From a virus: a stretch of 36,959 nucleotides of DNA. The notes beneath the pieces were generated by a model, which saw only the letters and a list, made by a program, of their open reading frames with translations, had not been told where the DNA came from and did no database searches. The translations under genes and the position numbers were made by a program. This document shows, piece after piece, positions 2,105 to 36,959 of this stretch. The stretch is from positions 1 through 36,959 of IMG/VR virus record IMGVR_UViG_3300010885_007576, one strand, 5' to 3'. Position 1 is the stretch's first letter, and every line of letters starts with the position of its first letter.

Positions 2105-3052
2105 ATGAAGACTTTCGATCAGTTCATTGTCGAGGCGAAGAACAAGGGTGACGGGGACTGTATGGTCGCCGCCGCCAACCTGCTCATGCTCCTAGCGCAG
2201 TTGGGACAGAGCGGCGGAACTCCGATGAAGAAAGCCGATGCCAAGTCGGGGAAGATCGTGATGGTCCATGCCCTCGTCCATGGTCAGGGTGCCGCAAAGG
2301 AACGAAGGTTCTCCCACGCATGGGTCGAGGACGGGGAGACCGTGTACGACCACTCGAACGGGAAAAGGATCAGCATGGACAAGGTCATCTACTACGCAAT
2401 AGGCAACATCAAGCCGAACGAGAAGGGAGCGTACTTCCGCTACACCTTCGATCAGATGCGTAAGAGGATGCTCTCCACGAAACACTACGGACCTTGGGAG
2501 ATAGACGAGAATCTTGAGGAGAACATGATCTCCGACCCGAGGAGGATGGGAAGGAAGAGGATCAAGGTTCCCCTCGACATAGTCTCCGTGCTGAAGGGGC
2601 AAGTCAGGGAGGCGTTCTCCTACAGGCATCCACGCACGGGCACGGGGGTACGCACGGGCGCACCTGCGCCCACGGGCGAGCATCAATCCGTGGAGTGGAA
2701 CGACCTCAAGAAGTTGGAGTCGATGCTGGATGCCATGTTCGCACAGGTGGGTCTCGACATCACCTTCACCAAGCACATGTGGGAGCGCATCAACGGAAGC
2801 CGTGGATACGGCGGCATGGTGAGCATCCCCGAGTTGCAGGATGCCTTCCGCAAGACATTCGTCAAGTACGGACAGAAGATCAGGGATCACCCGACGAATT
2901 GGAGGGCGATCATCCTCGACATCAGCAAGCAGCATCTCAACATCCCCTTCGTTCTTGATTGGAACCCGAGCAGCAGGGAGATGTCTCTCGTCGTCACCAC
3001 GGCGATGAAGAAGCAGAACTTCATGGCATCCGAACCCAAACTCCCCGTCTGA
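2105..3052 (+). CDS. Putative internal head (injected) protein: capsid-targeting leader + papain/transglutaminase-like peptidase domain + C-terminal domain
   Basis: The first 11 residues, MKTFDQFIVEA, closely match the capsid-targeting sequence of T4 internal proteins (MKTYQEFIAEA in IPIII). They include an I-x-E/A site of the kind cut by the gp21 prohead protease, so processing after E10 is predicted. The next domain shows C19 in a GDC context, H71 in SHAWVE and D82 in YDHS, the order and spacing of a Cys-His-Asp papain/transglutaminase-like triad. A linker at ~176-193 is a GC-rich repeat insert (TGTGVRTGAPAPTG). The C-terminal region (~195-305) contains FTKHMWERING and a downstream strand-rich part, loosely like small RelE/BECR-type domains; that is weak. 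Expression appears to come from the adjacent late promoter. Packaging and delivery into the host are inferred from the leader; the substrate is unknown. Confidence 0.7.
   Translation: MKTFDQFIVEAKNKGDGDCMVAAANLLMLLAQLGQSGGTPMKKADAKSGKIVMVHALVHGQGAAKERRFSHAWVEDGETVYDHSNGKRISMDKVIYYAIGNIKPNEKGAYFRYTFDQMRKRMLSTKHYGPWEIDENLEENMISDPRRMGRKRIKVPLDIVSVLKGQVREAFSYRHPRTGTGVRTGAPAPTGEHQSVEWNDLKKLESMLDAMFAQVGLDITFTKHMWERINGSRGYGGMVSIPELQDAFRKTFVKYGQKIRDHPTNWRAIILDISKQHLNIPFVLDWNPSSREMSLVVTTAMKKQNFMASEPKLPV
2631..2679 (+). repeat. GC-rich CGCACGGG-type repeat insert, copy 1
   Basis: A purine/pyrimidine-alternating stretch built from CGCACGGG and GGGCGCAC units lies in frame inside the preceding-described gene, in the linker between its two domains. 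Two related stretches occur at 21695-21742 and 33316-33377 in unrelated genes. The word CGCACGGGCGCAC is shared exactly with copy 2. Confidence 0.6.
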
Positions 3053-6633: not shown

Positions 6634-7188
6634 ATGAACGGATTCAACGAACATCTGTTATCGGAGAGCCGCAGGGGTCAGATCTACTGCGACATGGACG
6701 GTGTCCTCGTTGACATCGTGGGTGGAATATGCACCGCTGACGGGAAGCCTCGCTGCGATGCGGCGGACTTCGAGGACTACTTGGAGGCGAACAAGGCAAA
6801 GTTCGACAAGGAGCATCCGAGGATCTTCGCCAAACTCCCGTGGATGGATGACGGCAAGCAACTGTGGAGGTACATCTCGGGGTTCGGGGCGCACATCCTT
6901 TCCGCCCATACGAACTCGTGGCAACCGACGAGCAAGGAAGACAAGATGATATGGATCAAGCGGGAGATGCGACCCATGCCCGAGAAGATCCATATCCCCC
7001 ATCGCAGCAGGAAGAAGGACTACGCCGTGCAGGAGGACGGGACTCCGAACATCCTCATCGACGATTTGAAGCAGAACATCGACGAGTGGAAGGCGGCGGG
7101 AGGGATCCCCATCCATCATAAGAATGCCGCCACCACGATTGCCACGCTCAAGAAGTTGGGATTCATGGAAAAGAAGGTGACCACATGA
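6634..7188 (+). CDS. HAD-superfamily phosphatase, 5'-nucleotidase-like
   Basis: This 184-residue protein carries HAD motif I as CDMDGVLVD with the nucleophile D20 and acid/base D22. A motif II candidate is ILSAHTN and the C-terminal acidic motif is ILIDDLKQNIDEW. This pattern matches the short deoxyribonucleotidase-like HAD enzymes common in phages, which dephosphorylate nucleotides or polynucleotide ends; the substrate is not determinable. The leader MNGFNEHLLSESRRG resembles T4 capsid-targeting leaders in layout (F, then L-x-E at 9-11), so packaging in the head is conceivable but weaker than for the gene at 2105. It is driven by an adjacent late-promoter motif and overlaps the next gene by ATGA. 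Confidence 0.8.
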   Translation: MNGFNEHLLSESRRGQIYCDMDGVLVDIVGGICTADGKPRCDAADFEDYLEANKAKFDKEHPRIFAKLPWMDDGKQLWRYISGFGAHILSAHTNSWQPTSKEDKMIWIKREMRPMPEKIHIPHRSRKKDYAVQEDGTPNILIDDLKQNIDEWKAAGGIPIHHKNAATTIATLKKLGFMEKKVTT

Positions 7189-10030: not shown

Positions 10031-10707
10031 CCACCGCAACGAAGACCAAGATCAGCCCCGAAACCCTCGCCATCCTCAAGAACTTCGCTTCTATCAACAG
10101 CAATCTTCATGTCAAGGCGGGAAACACGCTCTTCACGGTGTCCCCGTCGATGACCGTCCTCGCCGAGGCGGAGATCACCGAAAACTTCGACAGGGAGTTC
10201 GGCATTTGGGACATGAGCAAGTTCCTGTCCGTGATCAGCATCTTCAAAGAACCCGAGTTCGAGTTCGACGAGAACCATGTCGTGATCAGCGACAAGAGCA
10301 AGGCATCGGTGAAGTACTTCTTCAGCGACCCGCAACTCCTCATCAAGGCTGACAAGAAGATCAACATGCCGAAGACGGTGGTGTCGTTCAGCCTCCGCAA
10401 GGACGACTTCGCCGCCATCCTCAAGGCAGCGTCCGTGCTTCAGGCTCCCGACATGTGCGTGGAGGCTTGCGGCGAGGGTATCTGCATCCGTATCTGCGAC
10501 AAGAAAGACCCGACCGCCCACAGTTGGACGCTCATGGTGGACTGCAACGAGCATCCCGAGTCGTTCCGTGCATGGTTCAAGGTCGAGAACCTCAAGATGA
10601 TCCCGAGCGACTACATGGTGGACATCGCCGAGAAGCGTGTCGCCAAGTTCAGCGGTGCCGTGTTGTATTGGGTCGCCATGGAAGCCGAAGGCAACGGAAA
10701 GGCTTGA
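10027..10707 (+). CDS. 45: DNA polymerase sliding clamp (T4 gp45 family)
   Basis: This 226-residue protein aligns with T4 gp45 across its length. The start SPETLAILKNFASINSNLHVKAG parallels T4's KDTTALLKNFATINSGIMLKSG, and the segments for both clamp half-domains follow (FDREFGIWDMSKFLSVISI, then FKVENLKMIPSDYMVDI near the C-terminus). gp45 is a trimeric ring that tethers the polymerase and, in T4, also activates late transcription together with gp33 and gp55, which fits the late-promoter motifs in this window. I use ATG 10027, which overlaps the previous stop; the upstream in-frame extension to GTG 9925 reads through another gene. In T4 gene 45 directly precedes gene 44; here a methyltransferase gene is inserted between them. 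Confidence 0.92.
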   Translation: MTTATKTKISPETLAILKNFASINSNLHVKAGNTLFTVSPSMTVLAEAEITENFDREFGIWDMSKFLSVISIFKEPEFEFDENHVVISDKSKASVKYFFSDPQLLIKADKKINMPKTVVSFSLRKDDFAAILKAASVLQAPDMCVEACGEGICIRICDKKDPTAHSWTLMVDCNEHPESFRAWFKVENLKMIPSDYMVDIAEKRVAKFSGAVLYWVAMEAEGNGKA

Positions 10708-10709
10708 GC

Positions 10710-11696
10710 ATGGAAGACCACCGCTACAGGATCATCGAAGGGGACTGTATCGAAGGCATGAAGACCTTGGCTGACGGCTGCGTCCACACCTGCGTCACTT
10801 CGCCTCCTTATTGGGGACTGCGTGATTACGGTCACGACGATCAGTTGGGTGCCGAGAAGACACCCGACGAGTTCGTCGGCAATATGGTCAAGGTGTTCCG
10901 TGAGGTGCGTCGAGTCCTGCGTGACGATGGAACGGTGTGGCTGAACCTTGGGGATTCCTATTGGAGCAACACCCTTTCCCGCAAAGACCCTGTCGAGTCG
11001 ATGTGGGGAAACCGTCCCGCTAGTGATCTTTCCGATGGTAGGGACAACATACCGAAAGTCAATAAGCGAGGTGGCTTGGGTGCAGCCCCCGAAGGAGTCA
11101 AGCCCAAAGACCTCGTCGGCATCCCTTGGCGTGTAGCCTTTGCGCTACAGGCTGACGGTTGGTATTTGCGGCAGGACATCATATGGCACAAGCCGAATCC
11201 GATGCCCGAGGCTGTGACCGACCGCTGCACCAAGGCTCACGAGTATATCTTTATGCTTTCAAAGAAGGCTCAATACTACTACAACCACGATGCCATCAAA
11301 GAAGATGCTGTTGGTGTGCCGCATTCGCCAGGAAATAAGAAGGTCACGCAACCAAAGGAAAAGGGAGCAAGAGATCCTGCTCTTGATCCTGATCGTGTAT
11401 GGGCTTCGGATGGAAAGAGAAACAAGCGAACTGTATGGACTGTGACCACGAAGCCATTCCGTGGCGCACACTTTGCCACCTTCCCAAAGGACTTGATCGA
11501 ACCCTGCGTCCTAGCAGGATGCCCTGAAGGCGGAACCGTCCTAGACCCCTTCACGGGATCGGGAACGACTTGTGTTGTGTCCCTCAATCACGGCAGGAAC
11601 TTCATCGGGACTGAACTGAACCCCGACTACATCAAGATCGCAACCGAACGAATCTCCGACGAGGCACCGATGAGCCTCATGGATGTGATGCAATGA
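10710..11696 (+). CDS. DNA methyltransferase, amino-group (beta-class SPPY), paralogue 1
   Basis: This 328-residue enzyme carries motif IV as TSPPYW (S31-Y34) near the N-terminus and the AdoMet-binding motif I as DPFTGSGTT near the C-terminus. That is the permuted order of beta-class N4-cytosine/N6-adenine methyltransferases; SPPY favours N4-cytosine but does not prove it. Two internal segments differ completely from its two paralogues at 16018 and 16986 (about 10965-11105 and 11305-11420), while the three blocks around them are nearly identical, as expected of a shared catalytic frame with exchanged target-recognition parts. Start ATG 10710 has GGAAAGG upstream; the frame further upstream lies inside the clamp gene. 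It splits genes 45 and 44 and overlaps gene 44 by ATGA. Confidence 0.88.
   Translation: MEDHRYRIIEGDCIEGMKTLADGCVHTCVTSPPYWGLRDYGHDDQLGAEKTPDEFVGNMVKVFREVRRVLRDDGTVWLNLGDSYWSNTLSRKDPVESMWGNRPASDLSDGRDNIPKVNKRGGLGAAPEGVKPKDLVGIPWRVAFALQADGWYLRQDIIWHKPNPMPEAVTDRCTKAHEYIFMLSKKAQYYYNHDAIKEDAVGVPHSPGNKKVTQPKEKGARDPALDPDRVWASDGKRNKRTVWTVTTKPFRGAHFATFPKDLIEPCVLAGCPEGGTVLDPFTGSGTTCVVSLNHGRNFIGTELNPDYIKIATERISDEAPMSLMDVMQ
11421..11696 (+). repeat. 276-bp shared 3' block of the methyltransferase paralogues, copy 1
   Basis: This block encodes NKRTVWTVTTKPFRGAHFATFP to the C-terminus. Copies of the same length end paralogue 2 (16714-16989) and paralogue 3 (17658-17933), and the last ~80 bases are almost identical in all three. 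Such long direct repeats are substrates for recombination between the genes. Confidence 0.8.
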
Positions 11697-15278: not shown

Positions 15279-16021
15279 ACTACGAGGTCTTCAACTCCGA
15301 TGCCATCGACTTCATGGTCGGTGAGCCTTCCGACAAGTACGACTTCATCTACCTCGACCCGCCGTACTACTGCGACAGGGACTTCGGGGAGTTCAGCGAC
15401 AAGTGGAACAGCATCGAACACTACATGGGGATGCTGATCTCGACCTTCGTACAGGCACGGCGCATCCTCAAGCCCCACGGCAACCTGTGCGTCCATGTCG
15501 ATTGGCATGCCTCCCACCGTGTGAGAGTGTCCCTTGAGAACATCTTCCTCCCGAGGAACTTCCGCAACGAGATCATTTGGTGCTACGCCTCGGGCGGGGC
15601 ATCGAAGCGTCATTTCTCACGGAAGCACGACAACCTGTTCGTCTATGCCAAGGATGCCGACCTCTGCCGCTTCAACCTGATCCGTGAGCCGTACCCGAGG
15701 GACTACAGCGGCAGAGAGGGGTTCCATCCCGATGGTCGCATTATGAACGATTGGTGGCAGATCGGCATCCTCTCCACCACGGCGAAGGAGCGGAACGGCT
15801 ACCCCACACAGAAACCTTTGGGACTGTTGGAGAGGTTGGTAAAAGCCTACACGGATGAGGGCGATCTAGTGCTAGACCCCATGTGCGGCTCGGGCACGAC
15901 CGTGGAGGCGGCTTTGCGCCTCGGCAGGAATGTGGTCGGCGTGGACAGCAATCCAAACGCCGTCCTCATCACCAAGGATCGTGCGGAGAGGTGCATGGGT
16001 CTGTTTGGACTCATGCAATGA
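15230..16021 (+). CDS. DNA adenine-type methyltransferase (DPPY), unrelated to the three paralogues
   Basis: This 263-residue methyltransferase has motif IV as YLDPPYYCD (D43-Y46) and motif I as LDPMCGSGTTVEAALRLGRNVVGVD near residue 217, again beta-class order. DPPY is typical of N6-adenine enzymes, and the WHASHRVRVSLENIF, RNEIIWCYASGG and YPTQKPLGLLERLV segments resemble the type III Mod/MboII-like group. No restriction partner is seen, so it is an orphan enzyme, probably protecting phage DNA. Sequence outside the motifs is unlike the paralogues at 10710, 16018 and 16986. It overlaps the next methyltransferase by ATGA. Confidence 0.9.
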   Translation: MSQERVVIELGGTVRVNYEVFNSDAIDFMVGEPSDKYDFIYLDPPYYCDRDFGEFSDKWNSIEHYMGMLISTFVQARRILKPHGNLCVHVDWHASHRVRVSLENIFLPRNFRNEIIWCYASGGASKRHFSRKHDNLFVYAKDADLCRFNLIREPYPRDYSGREGFHPDGRIMNDWWQIGILSTTAKERNGYPTQKPLGLLERLVKAYTDEGDLVLDPMCGSGTTVEAALRLGRNVVGVDSNPNAVLITKDRAERCMGLFGLMQ

Positions 16022-16989
16022 CCAAAGACCACCGCTACATTATCATCGAAGGCGACTGCATCAAGGGAATGGCTACGCTTCCTGACGGCTGCGTCCACAC
16101 CTGCGTCACTTCGCCTCCTTATTGGGGCTTGCGTGATTACGGTCACGACGATCAGATCGGGGCGGAGAAGTCCCCCGAAGCGTATGTTGAGAACATTATC
16201 AATGTGTTCCGTGAGGTCAAGCGTGTCCTCCGTGACGATGGCACGGTGTGGCTCAACTTGGGGGATAGTTATGCTAGGAATGGTGGTGGTGTTGAATCTC
16301 GTATGAACAGTATTGATAAAATGGGTGTGGGGCAAAAAGCAACTTATTTGGCGGGTGCAATGCAAACCATCAACAAAGTACCATTTGGTCTTAAATCAAA
16401 AGACCTCATAGGCATCCCGTGGCGTGTTGCCTTCGCCCTCCAAGCAGACGGGTGGTACTTGCGTCAGGACATCATATGGCATAAGCCCAATCCCATGCCT
16501 GAAAGCGTGACCGACCGCTGCACCAAGGCACACGAATACATCTTCCTGCTTGCCAAGTCGCAGAGGTACTACTACGACAACGATGTGATCAAGGAAGCGG
16601 CCACGACTGCTCCTGCCAAGCGGGACAAGGCGGGTGAGGGCTACCAAGCCGATTACCCCCACGGGGATCGTTTCTCCGAAGGTGAGCGAGTGTGGGGTGC
16701 TGACAACAAGAAGAACAAGCGTTCTGTGTGGACTGTGACCACGAAGCCGTTCCGTGGCGCACACTTTGCCACCTTCCCGCCCGATCTCATCGAACCGTGT
16801 GTCCTTGCGGGATGCCCTGAAGGCGGGACGGTCTTTGATCCATTCACGGGCAGCGGAACCACCTGTGTCGTTGCTCTGAACAACAACCGACGATTCGTTG
16901 GAACCGAACTGAACCCCGAGTACATCAAGATCGCAACCGAACGAATCTCCGACGAGGCACCGATGAGCCTCATGGATGTGATGGAATGA
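16018..16989 (+). CDS. DNA methyltransferase, amino-group (beta-class SPPY), paralogue 2
   Basis: This 323-residue enzyme shares its N-terminal block (EGDCIKGM through TSPPYWGLRDYGHDDQ to GTVWLNLGDSY), its central block (DLIGIPWRVAFALQADGWYLRQDIIW) and its C-terminal block (NKRSVWTVTTKPFRGAHFATFP through DPFTGSGTT) with paralogues 1 and 3. Two intervening segments (about residues 85-128 and 195-232) are unrelated to theirs. Within the first variable segment the codons are A/T-rich (16261-16400), unlike the flanks, which points to import of a recognition segment by recombination. I start at ATG 16018, overlapping the previous stop; the longer upstream frame lies inside the previous gene. The predicted reaction is methyl transfer from AdoMet to a cytosine N4 or adenine N6. 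Confidence 0.88.
   Translation: MTKDHRYIIIEGDCIKGMATLPDGCVHTCVTSPPYWGLRDYGHDDQIGAEKSPEAYVENIINVFREVKRVLRDDGTVWLNLGDSYARNGGGVESRMNSIDKMGVGQKATYLAGAMQTINKVPFGLKSKDLIGIPWRVAFALQADGWYLRQDIIWHKPNPMPESVTDRCTKAHEYIFLLAKSQRYYYDNDVIKEAATTAPAKRDKAGEGYQADYPHGDRFSEGERVWGADNKKNKRSVWTVTTKPFRGAHFATFPPDLIEPCVLAGCPEGGTVFDPFTGSGTTCVVALNNNRRFVGTELNPEYIKIATERISDEAPMSLMDVME
16714..16989 (+). repeat. 276-bp shared 3' block of the methyltransferase paralogues, copy 2
   Basis: This is the second copy of the block described at 11421-11696, encoding NKRSVWTVTTKPFRGAHF to the C-terminus. Confidence 0.8.
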
Positions 16990-17933
16990 CTGAAGACCCC
17001 CGCTACAGGATCATTGAAGGCGACTGCATCAAGGGGATGAAGACCCTTCCTGAAGCCTCCGTTCAGACTTGCATCACCTCTCCTCCCTACTTTGGTCTGC
17101 GTGACTACGGGAACGGTGATCAGATCGGTCTTGAGGAGACTCCCGATCAGTATGTCGCCAAGATGGTCGAGGTGTTCCGTGAGGTTCGCCGTGTCCTGCG
17201 TGACGATGGCACCGTGTGGCTGAACTTGGGTGACTCATACTCCGCAGGAGGCAGGGGCGGGGGACAGGATGGAAGCATCCAACAGGGAAACAAGGGTTCC
17301 GTGACGGGAGCCGTATTCGGCACATGGAAGGTCGAAGGCTTCAAGAACAAGAATCTCTTGGGCATCCCGTGGCGTGTAGCCTTTGCGCTACAGGCTGACG
17401 GTTGGTACTTGAGGCAGGACATCATTTGGTCGAAGCCAAACCCGATGCCCGAGTCCGTCACCGACCGCTGCACCAAGGCGCATGAGTACATCTTCCTGCT
17501 CTCCAAGTCGCAGAAGTACTACTACGACCACGATGTCATCAAGGAACCCGCCGTTATGGCTTCGGGCAAGAGTGGCTTTGGTGGTCCCAAACTGAACAGT
17601 AATGAAAAGGCGCATACCAACGAACTCGGCAAGGCTTGGGAAAAGACAACCACTCGCAACAAGCGTTCCGTGTGGACTGTGACCACGAAGCCGTTCCGTG
17701 GAGCGCACTTCGCCACCTTCCCAAAGGACTTGATCGAACCCTGTGTCCTAGCAGGATGCCCTGAAGGTGGGACCGTTCTTGATCCGTTCACGGGATCGGG
17801 AACGACCTGCGTCGTGTCCCTCAAGCACGGCAGGAATTTCATCGGAACCGAACTGAACCCCGAGTACATCAAGATCGCAACCGAACGAATCTCCGACGAG
17901 GCACCGATGAGCCTCACGGATGTGATGGAATGA
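16986..17933 (+). CDS. DNA methyltransferase, amino-group (beta-class SPPY), paralogue 3
   Basis: This 315-residue enzyme is the third copy, with TSPPYFGLRDYGNGDQ near the N-terminus and DPFTGSGTT near the C-terminus. Its first variable segment is Gly-rich (SAGGRGGGQDGSIQQGNKGS) and its second reads PAVMASGKSGFGGPKLNSN; neither resembles the other two paralogues. The C-terminal 276 bases line up base for base in length with those of paralogues 1 and 2. It joins its neighbours by ATGA overlaps on both sides. No restriction endonuclease gene is present nearby, so protection of phage DNA or regulation is more likely than a restriction-modification system. Confidence 0.88.
   Translation: MTEDPRYRIIEGDCIKGMKTLPEASVQTCITSPPYFGLRDYGNGDQIGLEETPDQYVAKMVEVFREVRRVLRDDGTVWLNLGDSYSAGGRGGGQDGSIQQGNKGSVTGAVFGTWKVEGFKNKNLLGIPWRVAFALQADGWYLRQDIIWSKPNPMPESVTDRCTKAHEYIFLLSKSQKYYYDHDVIKEPAVMASGKSGFGGPKLNSNEKAHTNELGKAWEKTTTRNKRSVWTVTTKPFRGAHFATFPKDLIEPCVLAGCPEGGTVLDPFTGSGTTCVVSLKHGRNFIGTELNPEYIKIATERISDEAPMSLTDVME
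17658..17933 (+). repeat. 276-bp shared 3' block of the methyltransferase paralogues, copy 3
   Basis: This is the third copy of the block described at 11421-11696; it differs at the end in DVME preceded by Thr instead of Met. Confidence 0.8.
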
Positions 17934-26824: not shown

Positions 26825-27622
26825 ATGAACACCCCCACTTATAGCATTTCCATCACGACATTCGTGTATCGGCTTGAGAAGTACTACAAGCCCCTGATGA
26901 ACGCCATCAGCAGGATGCGTCCGAACACCGACAAGATCGTGTTCGTCAACGGGCAGCACAAGAAGGACTTCGATCAGGACTACCGCAGGGAGATCATGCG
27001 GTTCTCCTCGCTGTGCCCCCGAACCTACCTCGTGATGTCCCCGATAGTCCGTGGCTGCTCCTTCATGTGGAACACGGCGTTCAACTTCACGAACACGGAC
27101 TACATCCTCAACCTGAACGACGACCTCGTCATACAGGACGGGTTCTTCGAGGACTTCGAGGAGATGCTCCGCAAGAACGCCGAGGCGGGGCATGAATCCT
27201 TCAGGATCAACTGGTCCTTCTCCCACTTCTGCGTCCACCGCCGTGACCTGTTCGATGTCGGCTACTTCGACGAACGGCTCCTCGGCTTCGGTGAGGAGGA
27301 CGGTGACTGGCTGTGGAGGTGGGAGGTCGCCAAGGGCAGACCCATGCGCTGCTACGGGTCGGGGAGGATCCTGAACTGCATCGACCAATCCTCCACGAAC
27401 AGCGAGAACATGGCCAAGCACAACGAGGGAGGGGGCAAGTACTCCTCCTTCAACAGGCAACTCATACTCGACCACATCTACGAGTTCCCGAAGGAACCCG
27501 ACCCGACCCGACCCGCACACTCGGGTCTGTACGGTCGCCCCGCACAGATGCGCAGGGGTGCGGAGACTCCGAACTACTACCCCGCAGAGAAGTGGTACAG
27601 GGACAACATCAACTCTGTCTAA
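26825..27622 (+). CDS. Glycosyltransferase family 2-like protein
   Basis: This 265-residue protein starts YSISITTFVYRLEKYYKPLMNAI and shows DKIVFVNGQHKKD and TDYILNLNDDLVIQDGFFEDFEEML, a GT-A NDD motif, then DERLLGFGEEDGDWLWRWEVAKG, the ED motif that usually holds the catalytic base of GT2 enzymes. It is separated by a ten-base gap from the gene before it. Substrates are unknown. Confidence 0.75.
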   Translation: MNTPTYSISITTFVYRLEKYYKPLMNAISRMRPNTDKIVFVNGQHKKDFDQDYRREIMRFSSLCPRTYLVMSPIVRGCSFMWNTAFNFTNTDYILNLNDDLVIQDGFFEDFEEMLRKNAEAGHESFRINWSFSHFCVHRRDLFDVGYFDERLLGFGEEDGDWLWRWEVAKGRPMRCYGSGRILNCIDQSSTNSENMAKHNEGGGKYSSFNRQLILDHIYEFPKEPDPTRPAHSGLYGRPAQMRRGAETPNYYPAEKWYRDNINSV

Positions 27623-28261: not shown

Positions 28262-29127
28262 AGATCGACAAGATTCTCTTCTGCTCCTCCGAGTTGTTCA
28301 GCCCCTTCTGGAACATCCAATCTCGGATATGGAAGACAAAGTTCGGAATCGAACCCGTGTGCCTTCTTTATGGAAGCAAGGAGAAGTGCGGGATTTCGGA
28401 GGAACATGGTCAGGTGATCGAATGCCAATTCGATCCATCCCTCCCCGACATTATTCAGTTGCAGTTCTCCAAGTTCTTCCACACGACCACGGAGCCGAAC
28501 ACGACATGGATGACGGGGGACATCGACCTGATCCCGTTGCAGACGGAGTATTTCATGCAGGGAATGGAAAGCATTCCCGACGATGGATACTGCCATCTCA
28601 ACTACTCCATGTGCGGTCAGATGTGGAAGATGCCTCCGAGGGCATTCTTCGATAGGGGTTCTAGGCTTACGGGAGGATTTGACCTTCCTGGTCACTACCA
28701 TTGTGCCAAGGGTTCTCTGTTCAAGGAGATCTTGTTCGGGGAGGATTCGTTCCAACAGGTCATCCGCAAGGTGGTCGATTCCAACCGATACGGGATGATC
28801 GGTGCATTCAAGGATGAACAGTCGATCCGTGGAAACTACTGGGTCGCAGAGGAGACCTATACCTCCGAGCGACTGTGGAACCACTTCAGCAAAAGATCCT
28901 TCTCCAAATTCTTTGTCAAAGACTACGACAGATCCTCAAGGTCGATGGAGGGAAAGTACGGGGGTGCTAACGGTTCGATATGCCCAACCGCATGGGATGG
29001 TCAGAACTACATCTACGACAGAAACAAGGTGCTGTCTAAGCACTATGTCGAAGTCCATTGCCCTCTTCCCTTCGAGAAGCAAGAGAAGTCCCTGATCTCG
29101 TTGCTGACTCTTGCAGGGATGATCTGA
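28258..29127 (+). CDS. Putative DxD-type glycosyltransferase or sugar-processing protein
   Basis: The start is ATG 28258 in an ATGA overlap (289 residues). The segment TTWMTGDIDLIPLQTEYF places a DxD-like D-I-D after a strand, as in GT-A-like enzymes that act at surface-polysaccharide loci. Later parts are aromatic- and Gly-rich (LTGGFDLPGHYHCAKGSLF, GGANGSICPTAWDGQNYIYD) with no further known motif. The function is inferred mainly from the DxD and from its neighbours. It overlaps the next gene as TGATG. Confidence 0.45.
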   Translation: MKIDKILFCSSELFSPFWNIQSRIWKTKFGIEPVCLLYGSKEKCGISEEHGQVIECQFDPSLPDIIQLQFSKFFHTTTEPNTTWMTGDIDLIPLQTEYFMQGMESIPDDGYCHLNYSMCGQMWKMPPRAFFDRGSRLTGGFDLPGHYHCAKGSLFKEILFGEDSFQQVIRKVVDSNRYGMIGAFKDEQSIRGNYWVAEETYTSERLWNHFSKRSFSKFFVKDYDRSSRSMEGKYGGANGSICPTAWDGQNYIYDRNKVLSKHYVEVHCPLPFEKQEKSLISLLTLAGMI

Positions 29128-30557
29128 TGACCCATCGCCTGATCTGCATTTCGGGTAGTTCGGGTGTTGGTAAGACAACCATTGCCACCCTGATCCGATC
29201 AATGCTCGGAGACGGAAACACCACCCATGTCAGCGGGGACGATCTTCATCGATGGGAGCGAAACGACCCTGTATGGAAGAAGGTGACTCATCTAGACCCA
29301 AGCGCCAACATGATCGAATTGGGTCATAGCCACATAGCCTCCCTCGTGGGTGGGCAGGACATACTCCGCAGCAGATACAACCACGACACGGGAAAGTTCG
29401 ATGCCGATCCCGTGTTCGTATCTCCCAAAGAATGGATAATCTACGAAGGACTGCATGCCTTGTGGCATGAACCGACCTTTCGCATGGCTGACCTGCGAAT
29501 CTTCGTGGACACAGACGAATCCTTGAAGACCGAGTGGAAGGTGAAGCGTGACACCAAGAAGCGTGGCTACACCGAGTCGGAGGTGATGGATACCATTCGT
29601 CGCCGCAGGGAGGACGAGAAACTCCACATCTCCCCACAGAGAAGCAACGCTGATGTGGTGATCGGGTTCTCACGGGAAGGGGAGTCGAAGGTATCCCTCG
29701 ACTACACCCTGTCGGGGGACATTGGCGACGAGTTCATGTCGAGGCTCAAGGACTTCTACGACAGTACCTTCGACTTCCTGTGGACATGCAGGAGTCTTTC
29801 GATGGAACCTCACTTGGTGCAGGGTAGGGGAGGGAATGTCTCGGTCAAGTCCGACAACGGAGAGATGATCATCACCCGATCTGGATGCAGGATGGAGGAT
29901 GTTTCACTAGGCAACGATTACTGCGTGTGTCGCATGGGCGAGGGATTCCCTTCCTTCTCATCCGAGGGGGACTACCTCTCCTTCGTACAGTCGCTCGTGA
30001 TCTCGGGAGCGGGCAGACCCTCCATGGAAAGCGGATTCCATGCCGTCATTCCCCATCGGGTGGTGGCGCATACCCATCCAATCCATCTGAATGCCGTGCT
30101 TTGCAGCACCGAGTCGAGGAGGATTGTCCATGAACTCTTCTCGGATACCAACATCGCCTACATCCCCTACACCGCACCTGGATTTCGGCTGACCAACGCC
30201 ATCATGCAGACGAAAATCCGAAGGGATCTCCCATGTGCGGTGTTCCTTGAGAATCACGGAGTCATCGTTGGATCCGATGGTCGTGGCGAAGCGGTTTCCA
30301 CGATAAACAGGATCAACGACAGGTGCATGGACTGGCTGGGAAACCGCTCTGACTCCTTCGTGGAAAGAGGAGCCGATCCTGAGCCGCAACCCTTGTTTCC
30401 TGATGCTGCTGTTCTTCCATCGGAGATGTTCCAAACAAACCGATACATACTCCGTCTGATGGAGGATGCCCGTCTTTCGCCTAGGTTCCTGACCGAGGTC
30501 GATGTGAGGGAACTCAACGGAATGGACTCCGAGAAACATAGGAAGGCTTTGGCATGA
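29127..30557 (+). CDS. Kinase - class II aldolase fusion enzyme
   Basis: The start is ATG 29127 in a TGATG overlap (476 residues). The N-terminal domain (1-~215) has Walker A SGSSGVGKTT, then HVSGDDLHRWERND and EWIIYEGLHALW, then RD.KKRGYTESEV...IRRR, the plan of uridine kinase/phosphoribulokinase-type enzymes. The C-terminal domain (~225-450) is a class II aldolase/adducin fold: GRGGNVSVK, MIITRSGCRMEDV, E in SMESGFHAVI, the zinc ligands in VAHTHPIHLNAVL and the third His in LENHGVIV. Fusion suggests that a sugar is phosphorylated and then cleaved, built or epimerised in sequence, feeding the pyrophosphorylase next door. The exact sugar is not evident. The pairing is unusual for a phage. Confidence 0.85.
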   Translation: MTHRLICISGSSGVGKTTIATLIRSMLGDGNTTHVSGDDLHRWERNDPVWKKVTHLDPSANMIELGHSHIASLVGGQDILRSRYNHDTGKFDADPVFVSPKEWIIYEGLHALWHEPTFRMADLRIFVDTDESLKTEWKVKRDTKKRGYTESEVMDTIRRRREDEKLHISPQRSNADVVIGFSREGESKVSLDYTLSGDIGDEFMSRLKDFYDSTFDFLWTCRSLSMEPHLVQGRGGNVSVKSDNGEMIITRSGCRMEDVSLGNDYCVCRMGEGFPSFSSEGDYLSFVQSLVISGAGRPSMESGFHAVIPHRVVAHTHPIHLNAVLCSTESRRIVHELFSDTNIAYIPYTAPGFRLTNAIMQTKIRRDLPCAVFLENHGVIVGSDGRGEAVSTINRINDRCMDWLGNRSDSFVERGADPEPQPLFPDAAVLPSEMFQTNRYILRLMEDARLSPRFLTEVDVRELNGMDSEKHRKALA

Positions 30558-31384
30558 AGATTGTGATTCCGATGGCGGGCACGGGAAATCGCTTCGTTCA
30601 GAAGGGATACCACGACCCCAAGCCACTCATCAAGGTGAACGGCAAGAGGATCATAGAGTACATCCTCGACATGTTCGCCGAGGATCACGACGAGTTCGTG
30701 TTCATCTGCAACGACGACCACCTCACCAACACTGACATGGAGAGCGTCCTCCTCTCGCTCCGACCGAACGCCAAGGTCGTCTCCATGCCGAAGCACAAGT
30801 TGGGTCCAGTCTACACGGTGAAGGCGGTCTACGATCACATCAAGGACGATGAGGAAGTCATCGTCTCGTACTGCGACAATCCCCACCTGTGGGACCGAAA
30901 GGACTTCAACAGGACTGTCACCGAGAAGCGCATGGACGGGTGCGTCCTCACACACACGGGCTTCCATCCGCACACCCTCGCCGCCACCAAGATGGCTTTC
31001 GTCAAGGGGCATGACGGCATCCTTGAGGAGATCAAGGAGAAGTCCTGCTACACGGACAATCCGATGCAGGAACACGCATCGACGGGGGTCTACTACTTCC
31101 GAAGGGGTTCGGATGTCAAGAAGTACTTCGACAGGGCGATGGAGCGTGGCATCACCTACAACGGCGAATACTATGTCACCCTCGTGTACAACCTCTTGGT
31201 AGAGGACGGTCTCCGTGTCGGCTACTACGACACTCCTTTCGTTACCGTGTTCGGAACCCCCGAGGAGGTGGAGAACTTCGAGGCATGGGCGACGATCATC
31301 AGGGGAGATCAGGTGAAGGACACCTTCGACCTGATATCATGCTACAAGTATTGGCGTGAATACCACAGGAAGGCACGATGGTGA
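30554..31384 (+). CDS. Sugar-phosphate nucleotidyltransferase
   Basis: This 276-residue protein opens KIVIPMAGTGNRFVQKGYHDPKPLIKVNGKRIIEYIL, the GxGxRF and PKPL signature of sugar-1-phosphate nucleotidylyltransferases, followed by VSYCDNPHLWD in the metal-binding position and STGVYYFRRG and NGEYYVTLVYN near the sugar site. It makes an NDP-sugar from NTP and sugar-1-phosphate. With the kinase-aldolase upstream and glycosyltransferases beside it, it is the likely supplier of the activated donor for the island. The start overlaps the previous stop by ATGA. Confidence 0.88.
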   Translation: MKIVIPMAGTGNRFVQKGYHDPKPLIKVNGKRIIEYILDMFAEDHDEFVFICNDDHLTNTDMESVLLSLRPNAKVVSMPKHKLGPVYTVKAVYDHIKDDEEVIVSYCDNPHLWDRKDFNRTVTEKRMDGCVLTHTGFHPHTLAATKMAFVKGHDGILEEIKEKSCYTDNPMQEHASTGVYYFRRGSDVKKYFDRAMERGITYNGEYYVTLVYNLLVEDGLRVGYYDTPFVTVFGTPEEVENFEAWATIIRGDQVKDTFDLISCYKYWREYHRKARW

Positions 31385-33522: not shown

Positions 33523-34671
33523 ATGCTTTCTTTCAGGGATGTGAATGTTGATGTTGTTCGCAAGAACAAGAGGATTCCTCATGTCGAGGATCTGATGTTC
33601 TCCGAGGGCAGGGAGGGTCTCGCCGCCTCCCTTCGGATGATCGGCGAGGTTCTCGACCGCTCCGAGAATATCGGAATGACCGTGAAGTGGGACGGAAAGC
33701 CCGCCGTGGTCTGTGGGATCAATCCCGACAACGGACGGTTCTTCGTCGGCACGAAGTCTGCGTTCAACAAGGATGTGCGGGTGTTCCATACCGTTCAGGA
33801 GATCGTCGGGGGAACCGACAATCCCGAACTCGCATCCAAGTTGTCGCAATCCCTCGTCCACCTGCCGAAACTTGGAATCAAGGGAGTGCTTCAGGGAGAC
33901 CTGCTGTTCACCCCCGACTCCCTGACGGTCGCCTCCGAGGAGATCTCGTTCACCCCGAACGCAATCAGGTACTCGGTTGACCGTGACACGGAGGCGGGTC
34001 GAAGGATCGCAAGGGCGAAGATCGGCATCGCATTCCACACCGTCTACGAGGGTAGGACGATGGCGAACCTCTCCGTAGCATCGTACAGGTTCGACCCCCT
34101 GTCGGTGACCCCCGATCCCTCTGTTTGGATGCCGAACATCTCCGTCAGGAGCATCGTCGAGAGCGATTCCGATGCCGAGGAGGAGTCACTCCATGAGTGC
34201 CACCTGATGGCGGAGAAGGTCGGTTCCTTCCTCCCAACGCTCATCTCCAACGGGGATCTGATGCCCTTCCTGATGCCGTACATCAACTCCACGGTCATGG
34301 CGGGGATGTCCCAACTCTCGGCAAGGGGCTTCGCCAAGTACATCGAGGCGAAGTCGGAGAAGGAGATCGACAAACTCAAGACGGACAAAGGCAAGGAGAA
34401 GAAGAGGCTCGCCGCCTCGAACATCATCAATTTCACCGAGACCTACGCCGCCCACATCAACAGGGGGTTCGACCTACATAGGAAGATGGCTGTGGTCAAG
34501 GAATCCGTCCTGTCGAGGATACCCCTCACCGAGTTCAGGCATCACTTCGTGGACGGGGATGCGCTCCGTCCAACGGAACCCGAGGGAATCGTCGTGAGCG
34601 ATTACGACAGGGTAGTGAAGTTTGTCCGAAGGTCGGGGTTCTCCGCTCATAACAGGAAGGTAAACGGGTGA
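33523..34671 (+). CDS. DUF6267-like protein with nucleic-acid-ligase (covalent nucleotidyltransferase) motifs
   Basis: This 382-residue protein resembles a family common in marine T4-like phages and annotated as unknown (HVEDLMF, GMTVKWDGKPAV, LGIKGVLQGDLLF). Read by motif, it has the order of ATP-dependent ligases and capping enzymes: motif I KWDG (K55-G58) with the candidate AMP-accepting Lys, a motif III-like QGDLLF near 126, IGIAFHTVY near 165, motif IV EGIVV (E354) and motif V VVKF (K366). A long helical insert lies before motif IV. If real, it would join or adenylylate nucleic-acid ends. The start has AGGAGG five bases upstream. The next gene, which begins with a nucleotidyltransferase domain, overlaps it as TGATG. 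Confidence 0.65.
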   Translation: MLSFRDVNVDVVRKNKRIPHVEDLMFSEGREGLAASLRMIGEVLDRSENIGMTVKWDGKPAVVCGINPDNGRFFVGTKSAFNKDVRVFHTVQEIVGGTDNPELASKLSQSLVHLPKLGIKGVLQGDLLFTPDSLTVASEEISFTPNAIRYSVDRDTEAGRRIARAKIGIAFHTVYEGRTMANLSVASYRFDPLSVTPDPSVWMPNISVRSIVESDSDAEEESLHECHLMAEKVGSFLPTLISNGDLMPFLMPYINSTVMAGMSQLSARGFAKYIEAKSEKEIDKLKTDKGKEKKRLAASNIINFTETYAAHINRGFDLHRKMAVVKESVLSRIPLTEFRHHFVDGDALRPTEPEGIVVSDYDRVVKFVRRSGFSAHNRKVNG

Positions 34672-36959
34672 TGAAGAGGTTCGCCATCCAAGGGGAAGAG
34701 CAGGTTCCGAATGATACAGCGGTGTTCTCGGTCGGGAGGATGAATCCCCCGACCACAGGACACGGCATGGTCATCCACACCGTGGTCGAGGAGGCGAAGC
34801 GGCTCAATGCCGATCACTTCGTCTTCGTGTCCAAGACGCAAGACAGCAAGAAGAACCCCCTCGCCGTCGAGGCGAAGGTCGAGTACCTACGGAAACTGTT
34901 CCCACATGCGAACATCTCTACCGAGGCGATAAATGCGTTCGATGCCGTCCTGCACCTCTGCGAGATGGGCTATAAGCACCTCGTCCTCGTGACGGGGGAT
35001 GACAGGAACAAGGACTACCTCCGCATCACCGACTACAAGGGCAAGGTGGCGCAGCGGGATGCGAAGGGTCGATCTTACGCATTCGAGTCGATTGATGTCA
35101 AGGTGGCGGGGGATACCCGCTCGACCGAGGCAACGGGACTAGCGTCCGTTCGGTCGTTCGATGCCCGTGCGGCGGCGTTCAACGGCGACTTCGCCAAGTT
35201 CGCCGCTCTAATCCCAACCGATGACGGGATGCTCAAGGAACGGCTCTACAACGATGTCCGTAAGGGCTTGGGGCTGAACGAGGAGTATGTCGCCGAGGCA
35301 CGGAAGGACAGCAAGGACGAGGTCACGATCCTCGCCCTCACCTCCTCCGAGAAGGACTTGTCCGACACGATTGAGAAGATGGGCGAACTCTGCAAGAAGC
35401 GGAAGATCCCCTTCTATGTGGTCAAGACCAAGACGGCGCAGATCGAGTTGTCGAATGTCGTGTCGAAGAAGATCACGATCAAGAACTACGATGGCGAGGG
35501 CAAGGACATCTCCGTCGTGCCGAGCGACACGGTTGCGGTCGTCCGTGGTGGCGTGATGAACAGCGAGGTCGGGGTAGCCATCCTGACCATCCTTCAGAAC
35601 AACGGCGTGTTCATGGTGAACGAGCGTGGCGGCATGGAACTCTGTGCCAACAAACTTGAGACGGCGATTGCCTTCAAGAAGCACGGTCTGCCCCATCCGA
35701 AGACCGCCTATGTCGCCAACGAGGAGAACATCGAGTCGGCGGTTAAGGAGATCGGCGGCAAGTTCCCCGTCATCTGCAAGACCCTGACGGGCGCAGAGGG
35801 CATCGGTGTCTCCAAGATCGAAAGCATGGAGAGCCTGAAGTCGGTGCTTCAGACGCTATGGAAGTACGGTGCCGAGATCATCATTCAGGAGTTCCTCCCG
35901 AACTTCAAGAACGATGTCCGTAGCATCGTTCTCAACGGCAAGATCTTCGCCTGTGCGAAGCGTGACAAGGCACCCAAGGACTTCCGCACCAACATCGCCC
36001 GTGGCTCCAAGGGCGGCTCCATGCAACTCTCCGACGAGGAGATCAAGTTGGTCGAACAGACTGCTCGTGTGAGCAAGTGCTACTATGTCGGTATCGACCA
36101 TGTCATCAACGATGGCAAGCCGTACATCATTGAGATGAACGCAAGCCCAGGCAGCGGAAACATCTACTACCGCTACTACGACGAGGGCAAGGGCAAGGAC
36201 AATGTGAAGGGAGAGGAACTCGTAGAGGACTTCCTCGACCACATCATCGTCAAGGCGAACTGGAAGTTGTTCTCGAACCTCGCCGTCCATGAGACCATCA
36301 AGATCGAAGGTGTCAAGTACGAGGCAAAGGTGGACACGGGGAACAGCGGCTACAACATGATCCACGCTACGGACATCAAGGACAACGGCGATCATACCGT
36401 CACCTTCGCATTGGCGAACGGCAAGAAGGTGACGAAGAAGATCATCAGCCGCATCAAGGTCAAGTCGGGCGTGGGTGAGAAGAAGCGCATCGTCGTACTC
36501 ATGGACATCGACTTCCACGGCAAGCACTTCCCGAACATCAAGTTCTCGCTCGGGGACAGAAGCCATATGTCGAGTCAAGTGCTGATCGGTCTTCGGTTCC
36601 TCGGTCAGATGGGCGTGATGGTCGATCCCACAGAGGCGATCTACCCCCACTCGGAGTCCTCGAAGGCGGACGAAGAGGACGAGGAGGAGATGAAGGAGAC
36701 CGCCAAGTACAAGACGAAGACGGGTCGAGTCCGCAAGTCCCCCGAGGACAAGGCATCGGGACTCCCCAAGAAGTATGTCTCGTTAGGGGAGGCATCCGCA
36801 TATAATTTCAGTGTGCTGAAGCGTCCCAAGTACGGACCAAGTGCCATGCCCAAGGGACATTCCCTTATCAAGTACCGAAACCAGTACTTCTGCTTTACAT
36901 CCGAACCCCCAAGCCAAGGGCAAGGGTCAACAAATCAGAATTGGACAAAAGCCGCCATA
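34671..36959 (+). CDS. Three-domain protein: HxGH-type nucleotidyltransferase + RimK-like ATP-grasp ligase + retropepsin-like protease (3' end beyond window)
   Basis: The ATG overlaps the previous stop (TGATG) and the frame stays open for 763 codons to the window edge. Residues ~15-190 form a NadM/cytidylyltransferase-like domain: FSVGRMNPPTTGHG (H31 in TTGH), LVLVTGDD, and DTRSTEATG as the ISSTxxR-like end. Residues ~320-526 are a RimK-type ATP-grasp ligase: NKLETAIAFKKHGLPHPKT, VICKTLTGAEGIGV, and IIEMNASPGSG (metal ligands E488, N490). Residues ~550-645 match the RimB/ATP-dependent-protease-like aspartyl protease fold: AKVDTGNSGYNMIHA (D555) and LGDRSHMSSQVLIGLRFLG. A charged tail follows. 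RimK enzymes add amino acids (often glutamate) to protein ends, and the linked protease can trim them. The three-part fusion suggests that tagging, trimming and nucleotide transfer act together; the target is unknown. Confidence 0.85.
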   Translation, partial: MKRFAIQGEEQVPNDTAVFSVGRMNPPTTGHGMVIHTVVEEAKRLNADHFVFVSKTQDSKKNPLAVEAKVEYLRKLFPHANISTEAINAFDAVLHLCEMGYKHLVLVTGDDRNKDYLRITDYKGKVAQRDAKGRSYAFESIDVKVAGDTRSTEATGLASVRSFDARAAAFNGDFAKFAALIPTDDGMLKERLYNDVRKGLGLNEEYVAEARKDSKDEVTILALTSSEKDLSDTIEKMGELCKKRKIPFYVVKTKTAQIELSNVVSKKITIKNYDGEGKDISVVPSDTVAVVRGGVMNSEVGVAILTILQNNGVFMVNERGGMELCANKLETAIAFKKHGLPHPKTAYVANEENIESAVKEIGGKFPVICKTLTGAEGIGVSKIESMESLKSVLQTLWKYGAEIIIQEFLPNFKNDVRSIVLNGKIFACAKRDKAPKDFRTNIARGSKGGSMQLSDEEIKLVEQTARVSKCYYVGIDHVINDGKPYIIEMNASPGSGNIYYRYYDEGKGKDNVKGEELVEDFLDHIIVKANWKLFSNLAVHETIKIEGVKYEAKVDTGNSGYNMIHATDIKDNGDHTVTFALANGKKVTKKIISRIKVKSGVGEKKRIVVLMDIDFHGKHFPNIKFSLGDRSHMSSQVLIGLRFLGQMGVMVDPTEAIYPHSESSKADEEDEEEMKETAKYKTKTGRVRKSPEDKASGLPKKYVSLGEASAYNFSVLKRPKYGPSAMPKGHSLIKYRNQYFCFTSEPPSQGQGSTNQNWTKAAI

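Follow-up and report, generated by a model that had tools for sequence, protein, structure and literature searches.

The window analysed here is a virus record of 36,959 bases (IMG/VR record IMGVR_UViG_3300010885_007576), and it ends inside a gene that joins a HIGH-type nucleotidyltransferase (NTase), a RimK glutamate ligase and a RimB retropepsin in one protein. We give an even chance to the reading that this protein is a glutamylation/deglutamylation enzyme that a T4-like phage packages into its head and processes. The window holds the 5' 764 codons of the gene (34668..36959, plus strand, as for all window features of the gene given below; GTG start at 34668, ATG at 34671), and the frame is still open where the window cuts it. 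An overlapping contig (L045), 99.98% identical to the last 4428 window bases, carries the complete gene (L045:2137-5550) and extends the frame to 1137 amino acids, in the order NTase, RimK, RimB and C-terminal tail. An earlier note had proposed the three domains from the motifs TTGH, DTRSTEATG, IIEMNASPGSG, VDTGNS and LGDRSHMSSQVLIG, all of which are present in the open reading frame (ORF) as first quoted, and the contig extension that it recommended has now provided the C-terminus. It missed the virion association of the NTase family, the tail and the family's capsid-targeting-like N-terminus.

Profile searches placed the three enzymes in separate segments of the chain, as that note had anticipated. 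The NTase domain (34701..35297) matched phage cytidyltransferase families over residues 12-219 (phrog_3041 4e-39, phrog_395 5e-26) and has a CoaD/NadD fold. The RimK domain, including its N-terminal subdomain, lies at 35313..36257 with the ATP-grasp core at 35649-36161, and matched RimK over residues 328-498 (PF08443 1e-29; PDB RimK 7qyr 1e-23). The RimB/PF05618 retropepsin-like domain (36279..36647) matched over residues 543-657 with a score above the family cut-off (PF05618 2e-9). Structure models were then compared with known folds. A full-length model of low quality (mean predicted local distance difference test, pLDDT, 58) served for the NTase and RimB parts only; another model, of RimK-RimB from an alignment without the row of Pelagibacter phage Mosig, reached a mean pLDDT of 78. 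The RimK model gave a Z score of 27.8 against RimK (7qys) and of ~20 against Ddl, placing it with RimK/LysX above other ATP-grasp enzymes. The RimB model gave Z 14.7 against the DUF785 structure 2pma and Z 13.6-13.7 against 9g58/9g59, and Foldseek related it to HIV-1 protease (E 2e-4); the predicted fold is that of a retropepsin with its DTG in place (36333-36341, within an invariant DTGNSG). The metal/ATP residues of RimK are kept (D477, E489, N491 and DFRTN). All 35 fused and stand-alone sequences compared share the RimK metal-site residues and the RimB DTG without variation, the two forms being ~30% identical, and no replacement of the catalytic residues of either enzyme was found. Judged by these residues, RimK and RimB of the window copy look intact, and the combination of a RimK-type ligase with a trimming DTG protease held up.

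The NTase could be defined less closely. Its first motif, (H/T)xGH, is kept as NPPTTGH (34743-34763), and NPPTxGH is invariant across an alignment of 31 homologues. At the position of the second motif, ISSTxxR, the alignment shows MSASKMR in most homologues and a degenerate VRSFDAR in the window copy (35148..35168). With the fold kept, this departure from the motif calls into question the activity of the window copy more than its ancestry. DTRSTEATG, which had been taken for the second, NMNAT-like motif, falls in a variable loop and was rejected. Nor was the NMNAT/NadM identity supported: CoaD (Z ~14) matches the model no less closely than NaMNAT (Z 12.7) does, and the NMNAT family phrog_3462 scored only 0.04 in the profile search. 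The two comparisons are too close to assign a substrate, and the idea that a nucleotide is transferred to the target of the ligase and protease found no support.

The same architecture was found in ~79 loci in a search of viral contigs, with 60 complete ORFs of 784-1388 amino acids; an assembly artefact as the origin of the fusion is thereby ruled out. In the tree, the fused RimK-RimB sequences form a single clade against the stand-alone marine type (support 100/100), with a very long branch between them. A GTD...TPG module is common to NTase-only proteins (cyanophage ACG-2014a, Melnitz) and the tail of the window protein (IGTDEIVKTYKRDTPGE), which leads us to infer that an NTase core and its tail were separated by insertion of the RimK-RimB pair. 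The tail begins in the window (36699..36959, LPKKYVS motif at 36762-36782) and continues on L045 (L045:4429-5550), where the end of the protein matches DUF3140 and, weakly, DUF6321. No phage isolate was found with at least 80% of the fusion protein; cyanophages have the NTase only and Mosig the RimK-RimB only. In bacterial genomes, a search by the RimK-RimB alignment turned up two weak relatives only, with narrow patterns from which absence is not implied. One relative (L177 / G004 68315-71323) has its frame broken by several stops and shifts, reflecting sequencing errors or a decayed gene.

The course of events that we consider is the following. An old virion NTase, encoded next to a DUF6267 gene between the genes for gp41 and gp61, would have gained RimK-RimB between its core and tail. 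A capsid-targeting-like N-terminal peptide would bring the fusion into the prohead core, where the prohead protease gp21 would cut off this peptide at (I/L)xE and, probably, cleave the chain again after RimB at [LIMV]xE, freeing NTase-RimK-RimB from the tail. A poly-Glu run ahead of this second site may, in most members, be a built-in RimB substrate, acting in cis, in trans or by filling the active site. The enzyme would enter the host together with the phage DNA, and there a protein with a C-terminal glutamate, by default host ribosomal protein S6 as the candidate, would have glutamate tails added by RimK and trimmed by RimB.

The N-termini are in line with this reading. Most members of the fusion family start like MTKRFADHITEAKKK, and N-termini such as MTKRFADHITEA resemble the T4 capsid-targeting peptide. 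Nearly all of ~80 stand-alone RimK-RimB proteins start with M(Q/L)V..FK.(Y/F)(I/L).E or a close variant (e.g. MQVQPFKNYLEEA), and the cyanophage NTases start with MKSFLQFLKEA, MKNFSSFLTEA or MKKFSAFLNEA. The T4 IPIII targeting peptide, MKTYQEFIAEA, follows the same pattern. The extension is absent from a RimK-only cyanophage protein. A strict form of the motif, applied to 703 ORFs, matched 11 ORF starts; at 18 internal offsets it matched 0-7 times, 1.7 on average. [LIMV]xE stands ahead of the NTase core in 20 of the 25 cluster representatives; in the window copy, the extension (34668..34712) keeps MKRF and has lost (I/L)xE (AIQGEE). In T4, the first ten residues target a protein to the head, L/I-X-E is the sequence behind which gp21 cuts, and Alt is processed at both of its ends (PMC9026906). 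In a separate observation, two other window ORFs (2105-3052 and 6634-7188) have head-targeting-like N-termini (MKTFDQFIVEAKN, MNGFNEHLLSES) and are candidate internal head proteins.

Published proteomics bears on the NTase part. Mass spectrometry of purified virions has detected S-SCSM1 ORF91 and S-CREM2 gp154 (PMC9602691, PMC10665884), both homologous to the window NTase (phmmer, 3e-23 and 2e-16). In S-SCSM1, ORFs 89, 90, 92, 93 and 97 of the helicase-primase slot around ORF91 are also marked as virion proteins, so that the majority of the genes in this slot carry that mark.

We have then examined the region directly behind RimB, where 15 of the 25 clusters encode 6-8 consecutive Glu. Their codons are mixed GAA/GAG, which disfavours slippage as the origin of the run, and broadly match each gene's own usage. 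No run of at least five Glu occurred in 260 other ORFs (69,710 amino acids) of the same loci and the window. [LIMV]xE follows directly behind the run, or behind a trailing KE, in 18 of 18 clusters with a run of at least four Glu, against a background of 2.1%, and in sequence it resembles a prohead-protease site. The Pseudomonas RimB cleaves Glu runs from a length of about six upwards, an internal Glu8 included, and leaves Asp runs uncut (PMC11957791). By analogy, we read the run as a possible RimB substrate; it may instead serve gp21 or have a structural role. In the window copy, the E6-E8 plus [LI]xE of most homologues is replaced by an Asp-interrupted DEEDEEE plus MKE (36669..36698). The suggestion in the earlier note of a self-modifying protein is favoured by the run behind RimB in most homologues, although the run of the window copy itself is broken. 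Four changes are enough to account for the run on the tree; we read them as a single gain and three losses, one of these in the window copy.

Several points weigh against packaging and processing. The likeness to the T4 peptide is short and was recognised by eye and with a simple pattern, one internal offset having given 7 matches, and the related sequences behind the motif and cluster counts are not independent. The published virion detections concern NTase-only proteins, that of S-CREM2 resting on three peptides; for phages that carry the fusion or RimK-RimB, no virion proteome turned up. The window copy combines the missing N-terminal (I/L)xE and the degenerate second NTase motif with a DEEDEEE run that should be a poor RimB substrate. 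Stand-alone RimK-RimB and the fused branches that split off deepest (L060, L064-L069) lack the poly-Glu run, which RimK-RimB as such can therefore do without.

Of the other explanations considered, the one that survives best is a purely intracellular host-takeover enzyme that is never packaged. It would glutamylate and trim S6 to tune translation, with the run as an acidic linker and the N-terminal motif as incidental; we consider this possible, though rather unlikely. RimK acts on S6 in bacteria, and Monier et al. suggested a similar role for phage RimK in 2008 (PMC2530865). The fusion gene also sits among replication genes, with a DnaB-like helicase gene upstream and a primase-like gene downstream, and stand-alone RimK-RimB adjoins regA, a translation repressor gene. 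Against an intracellular enzyme, NTase relatives of the same genomic slot occur in virions, and the N-terminal extension is common to otherwise unrelated NTase and RimK-RimB proteins. An acidic linker should moreover mix Asp and Glu, whereas the runs are nearly pure Glu and, apart from the scaffold protein gp22, unique in the proteome.

The gp22 exception leads to another explanation, in which RimB would be a second head-maturation protease that cuts poly-Glu in gp22 and in itself, and RimK would act on the glutamate-ended peptides made by gp21. In six large records (985 ORFs, 278,898 amino acids), runs of at least five Glu were found in two proteins only, the fusion and gp22 of the genomes G001 and G006, where fewer than 0.01 runs of at least six would be expected. 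We recognised gp22 from annotated relatives and from its position, flanked by gp21 and gp23; the Glu7-Glu8 run lies near its N-terminus (L258:15179-16273, minus strand, in G001; 99909-101018 in G006). Glu7-Glu11 runs occur in 30 of the 37 gp22 relatives, compared with four consecutive Glu at most in gp22 of nine phages outside the group, and in G002 and Mosig the run is missing from both gp22 and the RimK-RimB-bearing protein. The cuts of gp21 are known to leave a C-terminal Glu (PMC9026906). This reading suffers from the small number of genomes in which both genes are visible, four in all, gp22 of the window phage not being among them. Further pairs were sought: none of 30 further fusion contigs contained gp22, and none of 11 gp22 contigs contained the fusion. 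The coupling also looks imperfect, as gp22 loci with the G+C of the window group (L330, L331, L333, L334) have no run and the window relatives L002 and L007 keep Glu8 in the fusion. With four informative genomes, the match in G+C speaks against a strict coupling of the two runs. A second head-maturation protease appears improbable, and we assign a similarly small chance to its wider consequence, that a retropepsin-type protease would operate in the prohead of tailed phages while RimK extends gp21 products into acidic head peptides. Finally, the poly-Glu codons might serve as a Shine-Dalgarno-like signal from which the tail is translated internally, as several members have GAGGAGG-like stretches with an ATG a few codons later, but the mixed codons following each gene's own usage and the many members without an ATG at the right distance make this very improbable.

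Parts of the packaged, processed enzyme that we favour have known counterparts. RimK with a C-terminal DUF785/PF05618 was described from marine T4-like contigs in 2008 (Monier et al., PMC2530865). Those proteins and that of Mosig (QOI68969) share with the fusion the RimK-then-RimB order, the T4-like phage setting, the catalytic residues and a similar N-terminal motif. The Mosig-type protein differs in being stand-alone (461 amino acids, beside regA, ~30% identity) and in having no NTase, tail or poly-Glu. Bacterial RimB, a RimBK hybrid and its protease and substrate rules were published in 2025 (Little et al., PMC11957791); RimBK shares the RimK ligase, the retropepsin-like RimB and the poly-Glu chemistry, but has RimB N-terminal of RimK, no NTase and no known link to virions. 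The "cytidyltransferase" or NMNAT-like proteins of cyanophages and Methylophilales phages (phrog_395, phrog_3041; S-SCSM1 ORF91, S-CREM2 gp154) have a homologous NTase, a similar slot and the N-terminal motif, without an inserted RimK or RimB. T4 Alt and the internal head proteins are unrelated enzymes that offer a working likeness in packaging, N-terminal peptide, gp21 processing and injection, which for the fusion are predicted. Injected multi-enzyme proteins are familiar as a general idea from the polyvalent proteins (Iyer et al. 2017, PMC5512222), single chains of unrelated enzymatic domains for which injection along with the DNA is expected; that text speaks of ATP-grasp and nucleotidyltransferase, but mentions neither RimK nor pepsin. 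In the phage isolates and open-licence papers searched, we found no NTase and tail on the same chain as RimK-RimB, and we saw neither the poly-Glu runs nor a head-targeting-like N-terminus in phage RimK-RimB described in those papers.

The genomic setting is similar to that of the NTase-only proteins. The gene immediately upstream (33523..34671, plus strand), which overlaps the fusion gene by 4 bases, encodes a DUF6267 protein (PF19782 3.9e-75). It has a KWDG near its N-terminus and EGIVV...VKFVRR near its C-terminus, similar to RNA/DNA ligase motifs, a resemblance that we treat as a lead only. The proposed pairing of the fusion with this ligase-motif neighbour found support: DUF6267 also adjoins the homologous NTase gene in cyanophage ACG-2014a and lies near it in Melnitz, and a single PHROG, phrog_455, covers both proteins. 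The window (G+C 56%) also codes for a T4-family DNA polymerase, a RecA-like protein and, upstream of the fusion, a DnaB-like helicase, and downstream on L045 a gene resembling the T4 gp61 primase was recognised by eye; we take the window for a T4-like phage. Elsewhere in the window, three paralogues of an N6/N4 DNA methylase (PF01555) are encoded at 10455-11696, 15883-16989 and 16986-17933, two of the three standing in tandem; the first shares 67-68% identity with either of the others. The gene at 29058-30557, which joins a phosphoribulokinase/uridine-kinase domain to a class II aldolase, adjoins a nucleotidyl transferase gene (30554-31384), with a glycosyltransferase gene nearby (26825-27622), and these genes possibly form a sugar-modification cluster.

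For phage RimK, on record since 2008, we found no demonstrated function. A head-targeting-like N-terminus common to RimK-RimB and NTase proteins would shift the question from an auxiliary gene to a virion enzyme, and this can be addressed directly in cultured phages (Mosig, Melnitz, cyanophages). The putative RimB-type substrate encoded next to RimB, and in related phages also within the scaffold, would give the protease a concrete target in the phage.

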